This document shows, in pieces, positions 11,190-46,244 of a DNA stretch of 64,000 nt. A model generated the notes under the pieces. That model saw nothing but the letters and a program-made list of their open reading frames with translations. It was not told the origin of the DNA and searched no databases. The DNA comes from Bacteroidia bacterium (lineage in GTDB: Bacteria > Bacteroidota > Bacteroidia > Chitinophagales > Chitinophagaceae). The stretch covers positions 1,230,806 to 1,294,805 of the forward strand of contig JAUICZ010000001.1 in the NCBI GenBank assembly GCA_030429205.1, read 5' to 3'. Position numbers and translations under genes: made by a program. How positions within the stretch are numbered: the stretch's first letter is position 1; the number at the start of each line of letters is the position of its first letter.

Positions 11190-11225
11190 AAATAATAAAA
11201 GGGGCTCTTGCCCCTTTTATTATTT
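11190..11225. terminator. bidirectional terminator aqpZ / aminotransferase
   Basis: A perfect 16-base stem (11190-11205 with 11210-11225) has a GGGGC core and A/T-rich flanks, with loop TCTT. It overlaps the stop codon of the convergent aminotransferase gene. Confidence 0.87.
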
Positions 11226-12396
11226 ATAAACAGCTTTTAATTATGTTACAGGCATGCAGTATTTCTTCATTCGTAATGCTAAGGGGTGGTGCTATTCTGA
11301 TGCAATCTTCTGCGAACAAGAACCAGTCGGTAAACAACCCTTTGTCAATCACTTTGTCTACAACTTCTATTACTTGCTCTTTGTTTTGTAGTTGTACTGC
11401 TATCAGCAGGCCTATATTCCTAACCTCTTTTATCTGATCGTGTTGTAGGTTTTCTTTAAATAGTGCGGATTTTGCCGGTACTTCATCATACATTTTTTCT
11501 TTAATCAGTACTTCCATAGCGGCTTTACCTGCTGCACAGCACACAGGGTGCCCTCCGAATGTAGTTATGTGTCCCAATACCGGGTTGTCAGCAAGCGTGT
11601 ACATGTTTTCGTATGAAGAAACGAATGCACCCATAGGCATTCCTCCGCCGAGAGCCTTCCCTAATAATATGATGTCCGGCATGATGCCATAATGTTCAAA
11701 CCCCCAGAGCTTACCCGTTCTGCCAAAACCACATTGTATCTCATCGAAAATGAGCATGGTGCCTGTTTCATCACATTTAGCCCTTAATTGCTTTAGCCAA
11801 TCCGGTTTGGGTTCAATAATGCCTGCCTCGCCTTGTACTGTCTCTATTAATACACAAGCGGTTTGTTCATTTATACCATCAATTAGCTCCTGACTATTGT
11901 AATCATAATGCCAAACTCCCGGCATTAAAGGTCTGTAGGCATTTCGGAAATACTCATCGCCTAAAACACTGAGCGCACCTATTGTTGAACCATGATAGCT
12001 ATTATTACAAGCTATTATGTCTGTTTTGCCGGTTACTTTTCTGGCTAGTTTTAAAGCTCCTTCTACAGCTTCTGCACCGGAGTTTACAAAATACACACAG
12101 TTCAGATGTTCAGGTAGGCGTTCCGTTAATAATTGAGCATATTCGTTTTGTGGCGTTTGTATAAGCTCACCGTATACCATTATATGCAGGTAAGTATCGG
12201 CCTGTTTTTTAATAGCCGCAATAACATCGGGGTGCTGATGCCCAATATTACAAACACTTATTCCACCGATAAGGTCCAGGTATTCTTTGCCATCAGCACC
12301 TATCAGATAGTTGCCTTGCGCTTTATCTATATGAATAGCTACCGGCGCTGGTGATGTTTGTGCTAGTTTCTGCTGAAATATTTTACGAGCATTCAT
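11224..12396 (-). CDS. class III PLP aminotransferase (acetylornithine/ornithine type)
   Basis: Subgroup III aminotransferase using pyridoxal phosphate to move an omega-amino group to 2-oxoglutarate. The 390-aa sequence shows NSGAEAVEGALKLAR, NNSYHGST, LIFDEIQCGFGRTGKLW and the Schiff-base lysine in ILLGKALGGGMPMG (about residue 242), followed by HITTFGGHP. The family includes acetylornithine, ornithine and 4-aminobutyrate aminotransferases; sequence reading alone does not fix the substrate, and no arginine-pathway neighbours are present. It is divergent from the lipoprotein/TonB receptor unit, with 331 bases between. The Pho-like array lies in that interval and could in principle act on both sides. 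Confidence 0.85.
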   Translation of the reverse strand: MNARKIFQQKLAQTSPAPVAIHIDKAQGNYLIGADGKEYLDLIGGISVCNIGHQHPDVIAAIKKQADTYLHIMVYGELIQTPQNEYAQLLTERLPEHLNCVYFVNSGAEAVEGALKLARKVTGKTDIIACNNSYHGSTIGALSVLGDEYFRNAYRPLMPGVWHYDYNSQELIDGINEQTACVLIETVQGEAGIIEPKPDWLKQLRAKCDETGTMLIFDEIQCGFGRTGKLWGFEHYGIMPDIILLGKALGGGMPMGAFVSSYENMYTLADNPVLGHITTFGGHPVCCAAGKAAMEVLIKEKMYDEVPAKSALFKENLQHDQIKEVRNIGLLIAVQLQNKEQVIEVVDKVIDKGLFTDWFLFAEDCIRIAPPLSITNEEILHACNIIKSCL

Positions 12397-12490
12397 TTTA
12401 AATAATATTGTTGGATATACTGAATGTTAACATTGTGGACATATTGCCTTGCGCCTACAATATACTGTTTATAAGCCTTTTAGTATCAGG

Positions 12491-12552
12491 TAACATTCTG
12501 TTAATATTAGGGTTACATACCCGTAACATTGGCGTAATGTGTCGGTAATATT
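12491..12552 (+). promoter_or_regulatory. tandem PhoB/PhoP-like operator array (six 7-mers, 11-bp period)
   Basis: Six 7-base units start at 12491, 12502, 12513, 12524, 12535 and 12546: TAACATT, TAATATT, TTACATA, TAACATT, TAATGTG, TAATATT. Each is separated by exactly 4 bases. Direct 7-mers every 11 bp are the layout bound by PhoB/OmpR-family regulators, and TTAACA-like units resemble the Bacillus PhoP box. The array lies in the 331-base gene-free interval 12397-12727 between a divergent aminotransferase and the lipoprotein/TonB receptor unit. The spacing is seen directly; assignment to a phosphate regulator is inference. Confidence 0.65.
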
Positions 12553-12680
12553 CGTTAACCAATTTTGCCCCCGAAATAAGGGAGGGTTTGCGCGTATGTA
12601 TTGTTTTAATGCATTGTTACGTTAACGAAAGCAACCTTAAATAAGCAAAAACCTTTCTTCATTTTAAATTAAACGTAGAG

Positions 12681-12714
12681 TAACATTCGCTTAATATTGC
12701 GTGTGTTCATTTGC
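12681..12714 (+). promoter_or_regulatory. proximal PhoB-like box and candidate promoter
   Basis: TAACATT (12681-12687) and TAATATT (12692-12698) repeat the upstream array units at the same 11-bp spacing. Eight bases later comes TTCATTTG (12707-12714), one mismatch from TAnnTTTG. The box therefore sits where a -33 element would be, as in PhoB-activated promoters, and the start codon follows at 12728. Confidence 0.55.
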
Positions 12715-12727
12715 ACAAAATAAAATT

Positions 12728-13945
12728 ATGAAAATGAGAATCTCCAGTAACTTTTTAAAATCTTCATTGGTGCTTGCAGCATCAATCGCTCTTTTTTCTT
12801 GTAACAAAAAAGACGACAACAACAACACTGGTACAACACCAGTTGTTACTTCTGACATTGTAATTGTTAGCTCAAACATTTCTGCTAACACTACATGGTC
12901 TAGCGACAAGATCTACCAACTTGCTGGTAGAATCACAGTTTTAGATGGTGCTACATTAACTATCGAGCCGGGTACAATCATCAAAGGTGAAGCTGGTACA
13001 GGTGCAAACGCTACAGCTTTATTGATAGCTAGAGGTGGTAAGCTTATGGCTGAAGGTTCAGAAACAAAGCCAATTATCTTCACTTCAGTTGCTGATGAAA
13101 TATCAATTGCAGACGTTGCAGCTGGTTCTTTCAAGAGCCCTAACTTAAACAACACTATCAACGGTCTTTGGGGTGGTGTATTGATTTGTGGTAAAGCAAA
13201 GATATCTGCTTCTGCAAATGAAGTGCAGATCGAAGGTATCCCAACATCAGACCAAAACGGTTTGTATGGTGGTTCTAACGATGCTGATAACTCTGGTACA
13301 TTGAAGTATATCTCTATTCGTCACGGTGGTGCTAACATCGGTTCTGGTAACGAGATCAACGGTCTTACACTTGCTGGTGTAGGTTCTGCTACAGTTATAG
13401 AAAACATCGAGATCGTTGCAAACCAAGATGATGGTATCGAGTTCTTCGGTGGTAAAGTAAGCGTTAAAAATGTATTGGTTATGAACAACGGTGATGATGC
13501 AATTGATACTGACCAATCTTGGAGCGGTACTCTTGACAACTTCGTAATCATCACTCCTGGTGACCACTGTTTTGAGCTTGACGGACCAGAAGGTTCTTAC
13601 AGCGCTGGACACACAATCAAAAACGGTACAATCGTTGCGCACAATAGTGATAGAACTTCAGGTGATTTGATCAACACTGATAAAAACTCAATCGTAAATC
13701 TTGAGAACTTGTTCTTTGCTAGCGTTAAGGATGGTCAAGTAGTTAACAGAACTACTGATAACCCAGACGTTAATTTTACAAACATCGTTATTAACATACC
13801 TTCTGGTAGCATCGATGATTACATCAAAGATGGTTCTGCTCCTGCAGGTATCACAGCTGGTTCTACTTCTTCAAACAAAGCTAACGCTTCTGTTTTTAAC
13901 GGATGGACTTTCGCTGCATTAGACGGTGCTACTAGCGGACTTTAA
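12728..13945 (+). CDS. surface lipoprotein with beta-helix-like repeats
   Basis: Role unknown; I infer a surface-exposed binding or processing partner of the adjacent TonB receptor. From the ATG at 12728 the product is 405 aa, with a lipoprotein signal (LAASIALFSC, Cys about residue 25) and a D/N-rich linker. The mature part shows short repeating beta-strand and turn units (ITVLDGATLTIEPGTIIKG, KYISIRHGG, IENIEIVANQDDGIEFFGG, VLVMNNGDDAID) typical of a right-handed parallel beta-helix. Codon use is strongly skewed to GGT, GCT, AAC, ATC and TTC compared with neighbours, suggesting very high expression. It is preceded by the PhoB-like array and followed by a terminator just before the receptor gene. 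An upstream in-frame ATG at 12701 would put nine residues before the signal and lies in the promoter. Confidence 0.8.
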   Translation: MKMRISSNFLKSSLVLAASIALFSCNKKDDNNNTGTTPVVTSDIVIVSSNISANTTWSSDKIYQLAGRITVLDGATLTIEPGTIIKGEAGTGANATALLIARGGKLMAEGSETKPIIFTSVADEISIADVAAGSFKSPNLNNTINGLWGGVLICGKAKISASANEVQIEGIPTSDQNGLYGGSNDADNSGTLKYISIRHGGANIGSGNEINGLTLAGVGSATVIENIEIVANQDDGIEFFGGKVSVKNVLVMNNGDDAIDTDQSWSGTLDNFVIITPGDHCFELDGPEGSYSAGHTIKNGTIVAHNSDRTSGDLINTDKNSIVNLENLFFASVKDGQVVNRTTDNPDVNFTNIVINIPSGSIDDYIKDGSAPAGITAGSTSSNKANASVFNGWTFAALDGATSGL

Positions 13946-14060: not shown

Positions 14061-16949
14061 ATGAAATATTCTTTGTTTTTCGTCTTAAGCTGTTTGATAA
14101 GTATTACAGCATTCGGTAATAAGGGAATCGTCCGCGGTTCTGTTATAGATGAGGATGGTCTTCCGTTAATGTCTGCAATTGTAGTGGTTAAAGGAACAAC
14201 TATTGGTACTACAACAGATTTGGATGGAGAGTTTACACTATCAGTAGAAACTGGAACGCATAATTTACAGATCACCTGTATTGGTTACCAGCCTTTAAGT
14301 ATTGAAGGTGTGAATGTAACCGAAGATGAAGTAAACGTATTGAAAGATCTACAGCTAAAGCCTATGAGCAATGAGCTTGAGGAAGCTGTAGTAAAAGCTA
14401 AGGCTGTAAGAACAAATGAAGGTGCTTTGATCGCTATGAAGAGAAGGTCTAGCACTATTATGGATGGTATATCTTCTGCTCAAATGCAATTGGTAGGAGA
14501 TGGTTCAGCAATTGAGGCTTCTAAAAGGGTTACGGGTGTAAGTATTGAAGATGGTAAATACATCTACGTAAGAGGTTTAGGAGACCGTTATACTAAAACT
14601 ACTTTGAATGGTATCCAGATCCCCGGTTTAGATCCTGATAAGAACAGCCTTCAAATGGATATATTCCCTACAAACCTAATAGACAACATCATCGCGAGTA
14701 AAAACTTTTCTGCAGATTTACCTGCAGATTTTACAGGAGGTTTAGTAAATATCGAAACAAAAGATTTTCCCGAGAAGAAGATCTTTAAAGTGTCTTTAAA
14801 TACTGCATACAATCCTCAAATGAACTTGAACTCTGACTACCTGACATATGAAGGTGGTGGTACGGATTTCTTAGGAATAGATGACGGAACAAGAGCTTTG
14901 CCTGATGGTGCTGATGCTCAGAACATTCCTACTCCAATTAGTGGAGCATCTAAAGATCAGGTGAAAAGCTTTGTAAGTAGCTTTAACCCTAACCTTAGTG
15001 CTAACAGAGCAACAAGCCCGTTAGATTACGGTGCAAGCTTGACGATTGGTAACCAATTACAATTGAAAGGCGAGAAGAAAAACAAACTAGGTTATATCTT
15101 CTCTCTATCATACAAAAGAGATTATACCTTTTACGAAGATGTTACATACAGCGAGTATCAGAGGTATAAAGAGTCTACTAAAAACGAATTAAGGTACGCG
15201 ACTATCCAGAAAGGTCAACAAGGAGAAGATATGGCTCTTGTTGGTGTGCTTGGAGGTCTTGCATACAAAACAAAGAAGTCAAAGATCAGATTAAATGTAT
15301 TAAGACTTCAAAGTGGTACAAGTAAAGCAGGTATATTCGATATCGATAACGATGGACAAGCAGTAGGTCAGTCTGGTTATATTGCTAAGTCTCACAACTT
15401 AGAGTATAACGAACGTTCTTTAACTAACTTACTATTAGCCGGTGATCACTCTATTGGAGACGGAAAATGGAAAGTAGATTGGAAGTTGTCTCCTACATGG
15501 TCATCTTCTGACGATCCGGATATTCGTAAAACAGCATTTACTTATAGTAACCTGGATACTTCTTTCGTAGCTGGTGCGGGTGGTAACCCAAGTAGAATTT
15601 GGAGATACCTTGATGAGGTGAACATGTCCGGAAAGCTTGACGTTACAAGAGACTATAAATTATGGGATAGAGATGCCAAATTTAAAGTAGGTGCAAGCCA
15701 TATTTATAAGCAAAGAGATTACGAGATATTATTCTTTGATATTCAGTTCTTCGGCAACCAATCATGGTCTAACCCTGATCCATCAGAAGTTTTGAATCCG
15801 GAAAATATTTATCCAAGTACTACAAACAATATATACTACCAGTCGGGTAACCTATTGTTAAACCCGAATGCATACTCTGCTAACGTAAATAACACTGCAT
15901 TCTATGTGTCGAATGAAATGTCTCCATTCCCGAAACTTAAAACAGTATTGGGTGTAAGAGCAGAAAACAACGTACAGAGATATACAGGTTCAGATCAGGC
16001 ATACGCAAGTGGTGATACTGTAAACGGTACATACTTAGACAATGAAAAAGTGTTGGATGCGTTAGACTTCTTCCCGTCTGTTAACTTGATATATGCTGTT
16101 ACAGATAATCAAAACATTAGGTTTACATATGGTAGAACAATAGCAAGGCCTTCATTTAAAGAGCTTTCTTTTGCACAGATCATTGATCCTCTTACCAACC
16201 GTATATTTAATGGTAGCTTATTTAAGTATCCGGGTTGGGATGGTAAGCTTACAGAAACAAGGATCAATAACTTTGACTTGCGTTGGGAGTATTTCATGAA
16301 GCGTAGTGAGTTGATCTCTGTTAGTGCTTTCTACAAAACATTCGATCAGGCAATTGAGTTGGTAAGAATACCAACACAACAAACAAGTACAGAGTTCCAG
16401 GCTCGTAACGTTGGTGATGGTAAAGTATACGGGCTTGAGTTTGAAGTAAGAAAAGAGATGGGCTTTGTTTCTCCATTCCTTTCTAAGTTATTAGTAATGG
16501 GTAACCTTACTTTGGTTAAGTCTCAAATACAAATGACAGACCTTGAGTTCAACGCTAGAAAGAACTACGAGAAGGATGGTGAAAACATAACGAATACAAG
16601 GGATATGGCTGGTCAGTCTCCATATGTTATTAATGCAGGTATTAGCTATAACGATCCTGAAATTGGATTGAATACAGGTGTATTCTATAACGTTAAAGGC
16701 CGCACATTATACATTGTAGGTGCAGGTTTATTCCCTGATGTATATACTGAGCCATTCCACAGTGTAAACTTTAGTGTGAACAAGTCATTCGGTAAAGATC
16801 GTAGAACATCAATTGATCTTAAAGTTGAAAACTTATTGAATGATAGACTAGAGAAGTTCTATCAGGCATATAAGGCAGATGCTCAGATCTTTGATAGCTT
16901 TAACCCGGGCATGACTTTCAGCTTAGGTGTAAGTCATACCTTCAAGTAA
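14061..16949 (+). CDS. TonB-dependent outer-membrane receptor with carboxypeptidase-like N-domain
   Basis: Energy-dependent outer-membrane importer. The 962-aa product has a signal peptide (1-20, ending ITAFG) and a carboxypeptidase regulatory-like domain (about 22-105, GSVIDEDGLPLMSAIVVVKG). A plug domain covers about 120-230 (RVTGVSIEDGKYIYVRGLGDRY, FPTNLIDNIIASKNFSADLPADFTGG, split here from a longer run), and a beta-barrel runs to the C-terminus (LGVSHTFK). No SusD partner is adjacent; the partner seems to be the upstream beta-helix lipoprotein. Start ATG 14061; a TTG two codons upstream is less likely. The substrate is unknown. The PhoB-like array upstream suggests phosphate or an organophosphate. 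Confidence 0.9.
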   Translation: MKYSLFFVLSCLISITAFGNKGIVRGSVIDEDGLPLMSAIVVVKGTTIGTTTDLDGEFTLSVETGTHNLQITCIGYQPLSIEGVNVTEDEVNVLKDLQLKPMSNELEEAVVKAKAVRTNEGALIAMKRRSSTIMDGISSAQMQLVGDGSAIEASKRVTGVSIEDGKYIYVRGLGDRYTKTTLNGIQIPGLDPDKNSLQMDIFPTNLIDNIIASKNFSADLPADFTGGLVNIETKDFPEKKIFKVSLNTAYNPQMNLNSDYLTYEGGGTDFLGIDDGTRALPDGADAQNIPTPISGASKDQVKSFVSSFNPNLSANRATSPLDYGASLTIGNQLQLKGEKKNKLGYIFSLSYKRDYTFYEDVTYSEYQRYKESTKNELRYATIQKGQQGEDMALVGVLGGLAYKTKKSKIRLNVLRLQSGTSKAGIFDIDNDGQAVGQSGYIAKSHNLEYNERSLTNLLLAGDHSIGDGKWKVDWKLSPTWSSSDDPDIRKTAFTYSNLDTSFVAGAGGNPSRIWRYLDEVNMSGKLDVTRDYKLWDRDAKFKVGASHIYKQRDYEILFFDIQFFGNQSWSNPDPSEVLNPENIYPSTTNNIYYQSGNLLLNPNAYSANVNNTAFYVSNEMSPFPKLKTVLGVRAENNVQRYTGSDQAYASGDTVNGTYLDNEKVLDALDFFPSVNLIYAVTDNQNIRFTYGRTIARPSFKELSFAQIIDPLTNRIFNGSLFKYPGWDGKLTETRINNFDLRWEYFMKRSELISVSAFYKTFDQAIELVRIPTQQTSTEFQARNVGDGKVYGLEFEVRKEMGFVSPFLSKLLVMGNLTLVKSQIQMTDLEFNARKNYEKDGENITNTRDMAGQSPYVINAGISYNDPEIGLNTGVFYNVKGRTLYIVGAGLFPDVYTEPFHSVNFSVNKSFGKDRRTSIDLKVENLLNDRLEKFYQAYKADAQIFDSFNPGMTFSLGVSHTFK

Positions 16950-44549: not shown

Positions 44550-46244
44550 ATGCCTGACACAACTAAACATAGTACTAGAGTAGACTGGCCTTTTCTGTTG
44601 TTTATATTAGGTGTTACCTATGTGAAATTTTCAGTAAAAGTGGCAGCGGTTATTTTCTATGCCGGCTATGTGTTGTACAAAAGATACCCGTTAAAGAAAC
44701 CTGCTTCGTTACAATGGTTCTACTTGGTTATACTAAGTGTTGGTTGTATCTCTTCTTACATCAATCATGCTTTTTATGATGATCGTTACCAGTTTGGATT
44801 TGCATTAGGTGTGTTGTACTGGTGTGTCTGTTTTCTGGCATCATACCTCACTTATGTTACAGTAAGTGCCTCAACAAAAGAACGCATGATGCAACTGCTA
44901 AAGACTTTTTTTGCTATTAATGCGATAGTGTCACTATTGACGTTGGTTGTGTTGTTTGTACAGGCAGGTTTTCATGTGCCGTATTGGTACAATGATGGTG
45001 GCCGGTTCGGGGTTTCAACAGGAGATTATATTAATGGTGTGTTTAGTGATAACTCTGTAACAAATGCTGCTATTAATGCTATGGGGGCATTATTCTTCTT
45101 GTATAGAAAGCAGTTTAAGTGGGCAGCGCTATGTGGCTTTGTAATGCTGTTATGTACCAGTAATGTGACAGTAATATTTTTAGCATTAATACTGGTAGTT
45201 ATATTGCTAACAAAAAAAGATCTGGCAATAAAAAGAAATGCTTTCTTGTTGTTGGTGATGATGTTGGTGTCTTACCCAATACTGTCTCCCCAAAACCTCA
45301 AGTATATAGAGGTTGTATATGAGCGCGAGAAAAAAGACGACTATAATATCGGTTTAGATGTATTGGCAAAAAGAGATATCAGCATAACACCTGAGGTGCG
45401 ACAGACAGACTTTTTTAAAAAGAATATAAACAGTGCATTTAAGGTTGATGATTATAGCGGTGTAATTCACAGTTACAAATACTACCCTTATAAGAAAGAC
45501 ATAACAAAGCCTGTGTTCTTTAAAAAAGAGTTCTATGCTAATATTGATAAGTATAAAATGGGCTTAAAGCAAGAAGCCTTGATCAATATTGGAGGTGAGC
45601 TGGCTGAGTTGCGAAAAGAATCTACAAAAGAACAGAAGGATGAAGTTGATGAAGTGCAGCATACAGCATTAAACCCGTTTTCTGTTCAAAAAGCAATAGG
45701 GAACTGGTACAAAACACCTGCAGACAATTCTGAATTAGTAGGCTACGATATGCCGGGCAAGATTTATACAAACTTGCAAACCCTATATTTTTTGTGGAGT
45801 AGCCCATCTCATATGTCATTAGGGGCCGGCATAGGTAACTTTTCATCTAAGCTGGCCATAAAAATGACCGGTTTGGGTTTACAGGGCTCCTATCCTGAAG
45901 ATAAAGCTTATGTAAGCATAGATTTTCTGCAATACCATTTTTACTCATTGATGTACTTTTTGTCGAGACATGCAGCGGAACACTCTGTAATGAACCTGCC
46001 CAATAGTACTTATAATCAGCTAGCGGGAGAATATGGTGTTGTGGGTCTTCTAGCATTTATTATATTGTACGTAGCATTTATTATAAAAAAAGGTTCGAAA
46101 ACAAAGCTAGCCTTGTATACGGCAGTATTGTTATTCATGTTCCTGGGAATGGAATATTGGTTTGAGTTGATTTCTCTTACAGTAATCTTTGAACTAATAT
46201 TTTCAAGTGAGATATTTGCAAAATCTGAGAATGAACAAAGCTGA
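44550..46244 (+). CDS. polysaccharide polymerase-like membrane protein with large loop
   Basis: 564-aa multi-pass membrane protein. About eight to nine helices lie in residues 10-250 and two to three after 490, separated by an unusually long hydrophilic region of about 230 residues (from YEREKKDDYNIG to HSVMNLPNSTYNQ). The late segment STYNQLAGEYGVVGLLAFI resembles the end of O-antigen polymerase loops. I infer the Wzy role from topology and from position between glycosyltransferase genes; the sequence is too divergent to be certain. Ends 14 bases inside the next gene. Confidence 0.65.
   Translation: MPDTTKHSTRVDWPFLLFILGVTYVKFSVKVAAVIFYAGYVLYKRYPLKKPASLQWFYLVILSVGCISSYINHAFYDDRYQFGFALGVLYWCVCFLASYLTYVTVSASTKERMMQLLKTFFAINAIVSLLTLVVLFVQAGFHVPYWYNDGGRFGVSTGDYINGVFSDNSVTNAAINAMGALFFLYRKQFKWAALCGFVMLLCTSNVTVIFLALILVVILLTKKDLAIKRNAFLLLVMMLVSYPILSPQNLKYIEVVYEREKKDDYNIGLDVLAKRDISITPEVRQTDFFKKNINSAFKVDDYSGVIHSYKYYPYKKDITKPVFFKKEFYANIDKYKMGLKQEALINIGGELAELRKESTKEQKDEVDEVQHTALNPFSVQKAIGNWYKTPADNSELVGYDMPGKIYTNLQTLYFLWSSPSHMSLGAGIGNFSSKLAIKMTGLGLQGSYPEDKAYVSIDFLQYHFYSLMYFLSRHAAEHSVMNLPNSTYNQLAGEYGVVGLLAFIILYVAFIIKKGSKTKLALYTAVLLFMFLGMEYWFELISLTVIFELIFSSEIFAKSENEQS

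Follow-up and report, generated by a model that had tools for sequence, protein, structure and literature searches.

Tandem 11-bp repeats upstream of a lipoprotein/TonB-receptor operon in a Chitinophagaceae genome are probable Pho boxes of two predicted promoters

Which regulator acts on the tandem repeats located upstream of a lipoprotein/TonB-dependent receptor operon in the genome of a Bacteroidia bacterium of the Chitinophagaceae family (GCA_030429205.1)? The repeats lie in the window analyzed here, a stretch of 64,000 nucleotides from contig JAUICZ010000001.1 (positions 1,230,806 to 1,294,805, forward strand), between the operon and a divergently oriented aminotransferase gene (11224-12396, minus strand). 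A sequence-only reading had described six phased 7-mers and a further pair, with a PhoB-type phosphate regulator as the best guess, and comparison with relatives supports this guess. The repeats are very probably Pho boxes, i.e., head-to-tail 11-bp half-sites for PhoB, which would drive the operon from two tandem promoters. This reading is well supported by comparative evidence.

The positions originally described for the repeats proved exact. The distal array (12491-12552) comprises TAACATT at 12491, TAATATT at 12502, TTACATA at 12513, TAACATT at 12524, TAATGTG at 12535 and TAATATT at 12546, each followed by a 4-base spacer, resulting in an 11-bp period. The proximal pair (12681-12698) consists of TAACATT and TAATATT, also separated by 4 bases. 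Both arrays are thus made of tandem 7-bp units with 4-bp spacers, the 11-bp direct-repeat organization by which Pho boxes are recognized. When the preceding base (G or T) is added to each 7-mer, the unit becomes an 11-mer close to KTAAYATTNNN. On the plus strand, the 11-mers of the distal array are, in order, GTAACATTCTG TTAATATTAGG GTTACATACCC GTAACATTGGC GTAATGTGTCG GTAATATTCGT (12490-12555) and those of the proximal pair are GTAACATTCGC TTAATATTGCG (12680-12701).

A chance or compositional repeat could be suspected in an AT-rich intergenic region (32 percent GC). However, as the sequence-only reading had argued, AT-richness alone is insufficient: none of 2,000 dinucleotide shuffles of the intergenic region, with periods of 9-13 and both strands permitted, reached the six-unit score (62.4, against 19.1 for the best shuffle). 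The proximal pair was matched by 1 of 5,000 shuffles of its own stretch. The unit scores were entered manually after units seen in the window and in relatives and are therefore not independent of the window. The highest-scoring six-unit chain listed for the rest of the window reached -0.5, and a three-unit look-alike at 45149 was rejected because it is located within a coding frame. Together with the conservation in the same genus and the second six-unit array in the genome described below, the shuffles make chance an extremely improbable explanation.

The distal array is retained in both same-genus genomes of our 147-genome family sample (L041 and L042), its registers being kept with substitutions. 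The three-way same-genus alignment retains the six registers with TTTTGC behind them and the pair with TTTGC behind it, and the intervening stretch is mostly diverged. An ortholog from another genus (L043) also has six 11-bp registers, four good and two degenerate as judged by eye, with TTTG at the same spacing. A weak pair-like match upstream (12428-12447, plus strand) is absent from the two same-genus orthologs and is probably non-functional.

Both window arrays carry a TTTG on the plus strand, 8 bases past the last 11-mer (+8), at 12564-12567 for the distal array and at 12710-12713 for the proximal pair. The first of these, which had not been part of the earlier description, is kept in both same-genus orthologs. 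These motifs would belong to the -7 boxes of two predicted promoters, P1 and P2. The Bacteroidota box TAnnTTTG is placed at -12 to -5 (PMC9723704), and the transcription starts are therefore predicted at about 12572 for P1 and about 12718 for P2, the latter being 10 bases ahead of the start codon at 12728. The last unit would then cover about -27 to -17 and the preceding unit about -38 to -28. Since both arrays share this TTTG spacing, we propose two tandem PhoB-activated promoters. A plain sigma-70 promoter scan gave a single match, on the opposite strand and within shuffle expectation, and no Rfam element was found in the leader at the gathering score. In a variant that would itself fall within the PhoB reading, only the proximal pair would work as an operator, and the distal array would be a remote enhancer or a PhoB reservoir without a promoter. 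It is the pair that adjoins the start codon, and both starts are predictions, but the distal array has its TTTG at the common spacing, conserved in the two orthologs, and we consider this variant rather unlikely.

The sequence-only reading had suggested that matches to the repeat be sought before phosphate genes across the genome. This check was moved to relatives, because the genome of the window has neither a PstB over the cut-off nor a PhoU-domain match. With up to 1 mismatch allowed, the three-unit pattern was found in 59 of the 147 family genomes and its reversed counterpart in 19 of 147. We fetched 78 array places and 23 reversed-pattern control places with their flanks, the window itself being used for its own array. 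The 78 places correspond to 76 loci and include both arrays of the genome under study and two places in genome G073; L159 (G119) was omitted because it had no match at 1 mismatch, and L213 because it repeats L102. Array places were intergenic in 72 of 78 cases (controls, 15 of 23), and a same-strand frame started within 450 bases of 60 of them (controls, 8 of 23). A gene for PstS, PstC, PstA, PhoU, DUF47 or PiT was located within 3 kb of 34 of the 78 array places and of none of the 23 controls (Fisher p 2.4e-5). This count excludes PhoB/R, PstB, receptors, the lipoprotein and porin-like proteins. The fetched stretches measured up to 18 kb for arrays and up to 8.1 kb for controls; recounted at equal distance limits of 2, 3 and 4 kb, the six genes were found at 32, 34 and 34 of the 78 places and at 0 of 23 controls throughout, and the counts were unchanged over the whole fetched loci (34/78 and 0/23).

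The promoter spacing recurred in the same sample. TTTG stood exactly at +8 from the last 11-mer in 37 of the 78 array places and in none of the 23 controls (Fisher p 9.1e-6), and at +19, equivalent to one extra degenerate unit, in 13 and none, respectively. Four further TTTG lay at other offsets within 30 bases of the arrays, and the controls had four in all. The fixed spacing to the core promoter expected of a Pho box is therefore seen at many of the family places and at both window arrays, but not at the second array of the genome.

In family relatives, arrays with this unit and pitch stand ahead of pst operons. The genes of one operon led by an array (L127) were tested individually, and PstS, PstC, PstA, PstB and PhoU all scored above curated cut-offs. 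Arrays were also found ahead of the lipoprotein/TonB-receptor operon, often divergent from DUF47-PiT. The frames downstream of the 78 arrays encoded a receptor of the window type (17), a porin-like protein (14), a second receptor type (11), a calcineurin-type phosphoesterase (5), a lipoprotein (3) or another product (10), and for 18 arrays none was found. The porin-like outer-membrane protein, of about 390-465 amino acids, heads the pst operon in several family genomes (L127:2211-3572 and relatives), and the members tested had no Pfam or NCBIfam match. Two of the reversed-pattern controls (L222/G015 and L223/G114) have TTACAAT-type repeats at an 11-bp pitch and precede a calcineurin-type phosphoesterase like those encoded behind the 5 arrays; these repeats are perhaps a variant Pho box.

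In the whole genome of the window, only two places matched the three-unit pattern when 1 mismatch was allowed, the window array and a second array that had also escaped the earlier description; none matched the reversed pattern. The second array, again of six units (C4:1669445-1669507; L003, G000:C4:1668702-1669507), lies ahead of a gene for a secreted-looking protein of 242 amino acids in the same orientation (L160:5703-6443). This orphan protein was matched by neither Pfam nor NCBIfam, and a search of 39 genomes returned no relative from the 38 others. When lone pairs followed by TTTG at +8 were sought in the genome with up to 2 mismatches, 21 were retrieved (reversed pattern, 17), and none of the frames downstream was recognized by eye as a phosphate gene. 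With 0-1 mismatch, P1 and P2 of the window were retrieved along with one match whose TTTG is poor, and a single-pair regulon is thus unreadable from this genome. Elsewhere, an exact pair at C8:138670-138688 (L005:1501-1519) overlaps the end of one gene, 32 bases before a gene matching DUF937, with no TTTG at +8. The genome also encodes one PiT transporter, preceded by DUF47, and the transporter sequence (L100:1450-2886) contains a PDZ domain inside the PHO4 match.

The genome encodes six regulators with a Trans_reg_C domain. The candidate for the repeats would be the product of L032 (about G000:C8:94684-95364), an OmpR-family response regulator that scores higher against PhoB (219.8 bits) than the other five and has TIGR02154 PhoB as its best match; the kinase beside it matched PnpS best, then PhoR, both under the cut-off. 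One of the other five proteins could instead bind the array and respond to a different signal. OmpR-family proteins generally prefer direct repeats, and L033 is also best matched by a PhoB model, just over RpaB (183.1 and 181.5 bits). The next PhoB score after L032 is that of L031 (189.9 bits), for which a heavy-metal regulator model is the best match (249.1), and L034-L036 are RprY-like regulators. A clear margin of the PhoB model over non-PhoB models was found for L032 only, and the phosphate genes counted above lie near arrays in the relatives, making control by another of these regulators very unlikely. The stretches around the six regulators contained no site, except one weak match at L036.

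The repeat was also sought outside the family. Exact three-unit arrays were present in 13 of 395 phylum genomes, two of which belong to the window's family, against 1 of 395 for the control. Four of the 13 regions, tested with Pfam, gave PBP_like_2 (PstS type), Porin_O_P, a Na/Pi cotransporter and a receptor-type protein, and a Porin_O_P protein is located on the other side of the cotransporter in its region. The other regions were judged by eye, and two of them (L195 and L196) showed no phosphate link by this means. Among 80 named lipoprotein loci, 23 had a three-unit array at a loose score, against 2 in the reversed control. In 16 of the 80, the stretch fetched with the lipoprotein gene also contains a PhoB-like regulator gene; 10 of these 16 genes were tested, and each was best matched by a PhoB model, with every score below the cut-off.

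Several observations weigh against the reading as PhoB-activated tandem promoters. Within the genome itself, the scanned stretches around DUF47-PiT and phoB contained no array site. The PhoB score of L032 is below the equivalog cut-off (296.2 bits), and the second array has no TTTG at +8, its last 11-mer being directly followed by TATATTCG. Of the 78 array places, 44 lack all six counted phosphate genes within 3 kb, 18 have no same-strand frame start within 450 bases, and the TA of TAnnTTTG is weakly kept, as judged by eye. These places are also not independent, since they include near-duplicate genomes (e.g., G062/G144, G051/G137 and G009/G109). Only the 23 of 80 lipoprotein loci show the array at the loose score, and 12 have TTTG at +8 or +19. 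Finally, the Caulobacter receptor cc0171, encoded next to a comparable lipoprotein, was reported to be expressed in rich as well as poor media (PMC2996285).

The genes that the arrays would control are a lipoprotein gene and a TonB-dependent receptor gene, both on the plus strand. The lipoprotein (12728-13945, 405 amino acids, start at 12728 or 12734) has a lipobox, read by eye, and no sequence match in Pfam, NCBIfam or PDB. Its structure, modelled from 10 sequences (predicted local distance difference test score 81.6, predicted template modelling score 0.82), is a predicted right-handed beta-helix. VIA-align of the model with right-handed beta-helix proteins gave Z values of 19 to 21 among the matches listed, mostly with a root-mean-square deviation of about 3 over about 260 residues, and Foldseek returned no match at E <=0.001. 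The second gene of the operon (14061-16949) encodes a receptor of 962 amino acids with a CarboxypepD_reg-like N-terminal domain, as identified by Pfam. The window operon thus appears to associate a beta-helix lipoprotein with an adjoining TonB receptor, and the lipoprotein, by its modelled fold and gene neighbour, resembles the FII/ElpS type.

Considering the arrays, their spacing, their neighbours and the literature, we therefore prefer a reading in which PhoB activates the operon from two Pho promoters in tandem, and we infer PhoB binding, activation, the firing of both promoters and the cargo. At low phosphate, phosphorylated PhoB, putatively the product of L032, the gene beside that of the PhoR-like kinase, would line up head to tail on the 11-bp units. 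The last unit would stand in for the -33 element and direct RNA polymerase to the -7 box TTTG. P1, behind six units, and P2, behind two units, would act in tandem and jointly switch on the lipoprotein and the receptor, which may bind phosphate or organic phosphorus and bring it into the cell.

PhoB-controlled genes are already known in Bacteroidota. If unit, pitch and promoter spacing were defined, regulons could be predicted across a phylum important in soils, oceans and guts, and an uncharacterized lipoprotein/TonB-receptor pair would be linked to the scavenging of phosphate in a species lacking Pst. The chances are about even that the repeats reflect a phylum-wide Bacteroidota Pho-box code, in which two to six KTAAYATTNNN units are followed by TTTG at +8 and PhoB supplies the poorly conserved -33 function. 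In the genome studied here, with no Pst shown, the regulon would then have shrunk essentially to the tandem-promoter lipoprotein/TonB-receptor operon and the orphan secreted-looking protein. Such a code, if true, would make phosphate regulons readable from sequence across Bacteroidota.

In the Pho box of Escherichia coli, the last unit is located near the -35/-33 element, as predicted for the window arrays, and an array of six units is long relative to E. coli Pho boxes. Pho boxes are 11-nt direct-repeat units with a species-specific consensus (PMC4415409), a repeat length shared by the window arrays. The window arrays differ from E. coli in the unit itself, close to KTAAYATTNNN instead of CTGTCAT, in the six contiguous units of the distal array, and in the element to which the spacing is fixed, the TTTG of the Bacteroidota -7 box taking the place of a sigma-70 -10 hexamer. 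Putative Pho boxes have been reported in plcP clusters of marine bacteria (PMC4796936), and our literature search, limited to open-licence PMC papers, found no Bacteroidota Pho-box sequence.

In Bacteroides fragilis, which belongs to the same phylum as the window genome, PhoB binds the pstC promoter, as shown by gel shift with a 512-bp fragment (PMC3547664). A parallel in gene content concerns Flavobacterium johnsoniae, in which the receptor Fjoh_0545 and the FII lipoprotein Fjoh_0546, located beside phoBR, are induced by phosphate depletion; a term search of the text of this paper found no Pho box (PMC8115612). The likeness with this cluster lies in the TonB receptor and the lipoprotein with a beta-helix type domain (IPR011050), whereas in the window genome phoB and the operon are on different contigs and the lipoprotein gene precedes the receptor gene. 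FII-type lipoproteins have been related to Caulobacter ElpS (PMC8115612), the product of cc0170, which is produced in phosphate starvation (PMC2996285). ElpS is likewise a surface lipoprotein with a TonB receptor neighbour, but it is proteobacterial. The locus is very probably a switch of a known kind, in which the unit is clade-specific, the array longer than in E. coli and the promoter spacing mostly rigid.
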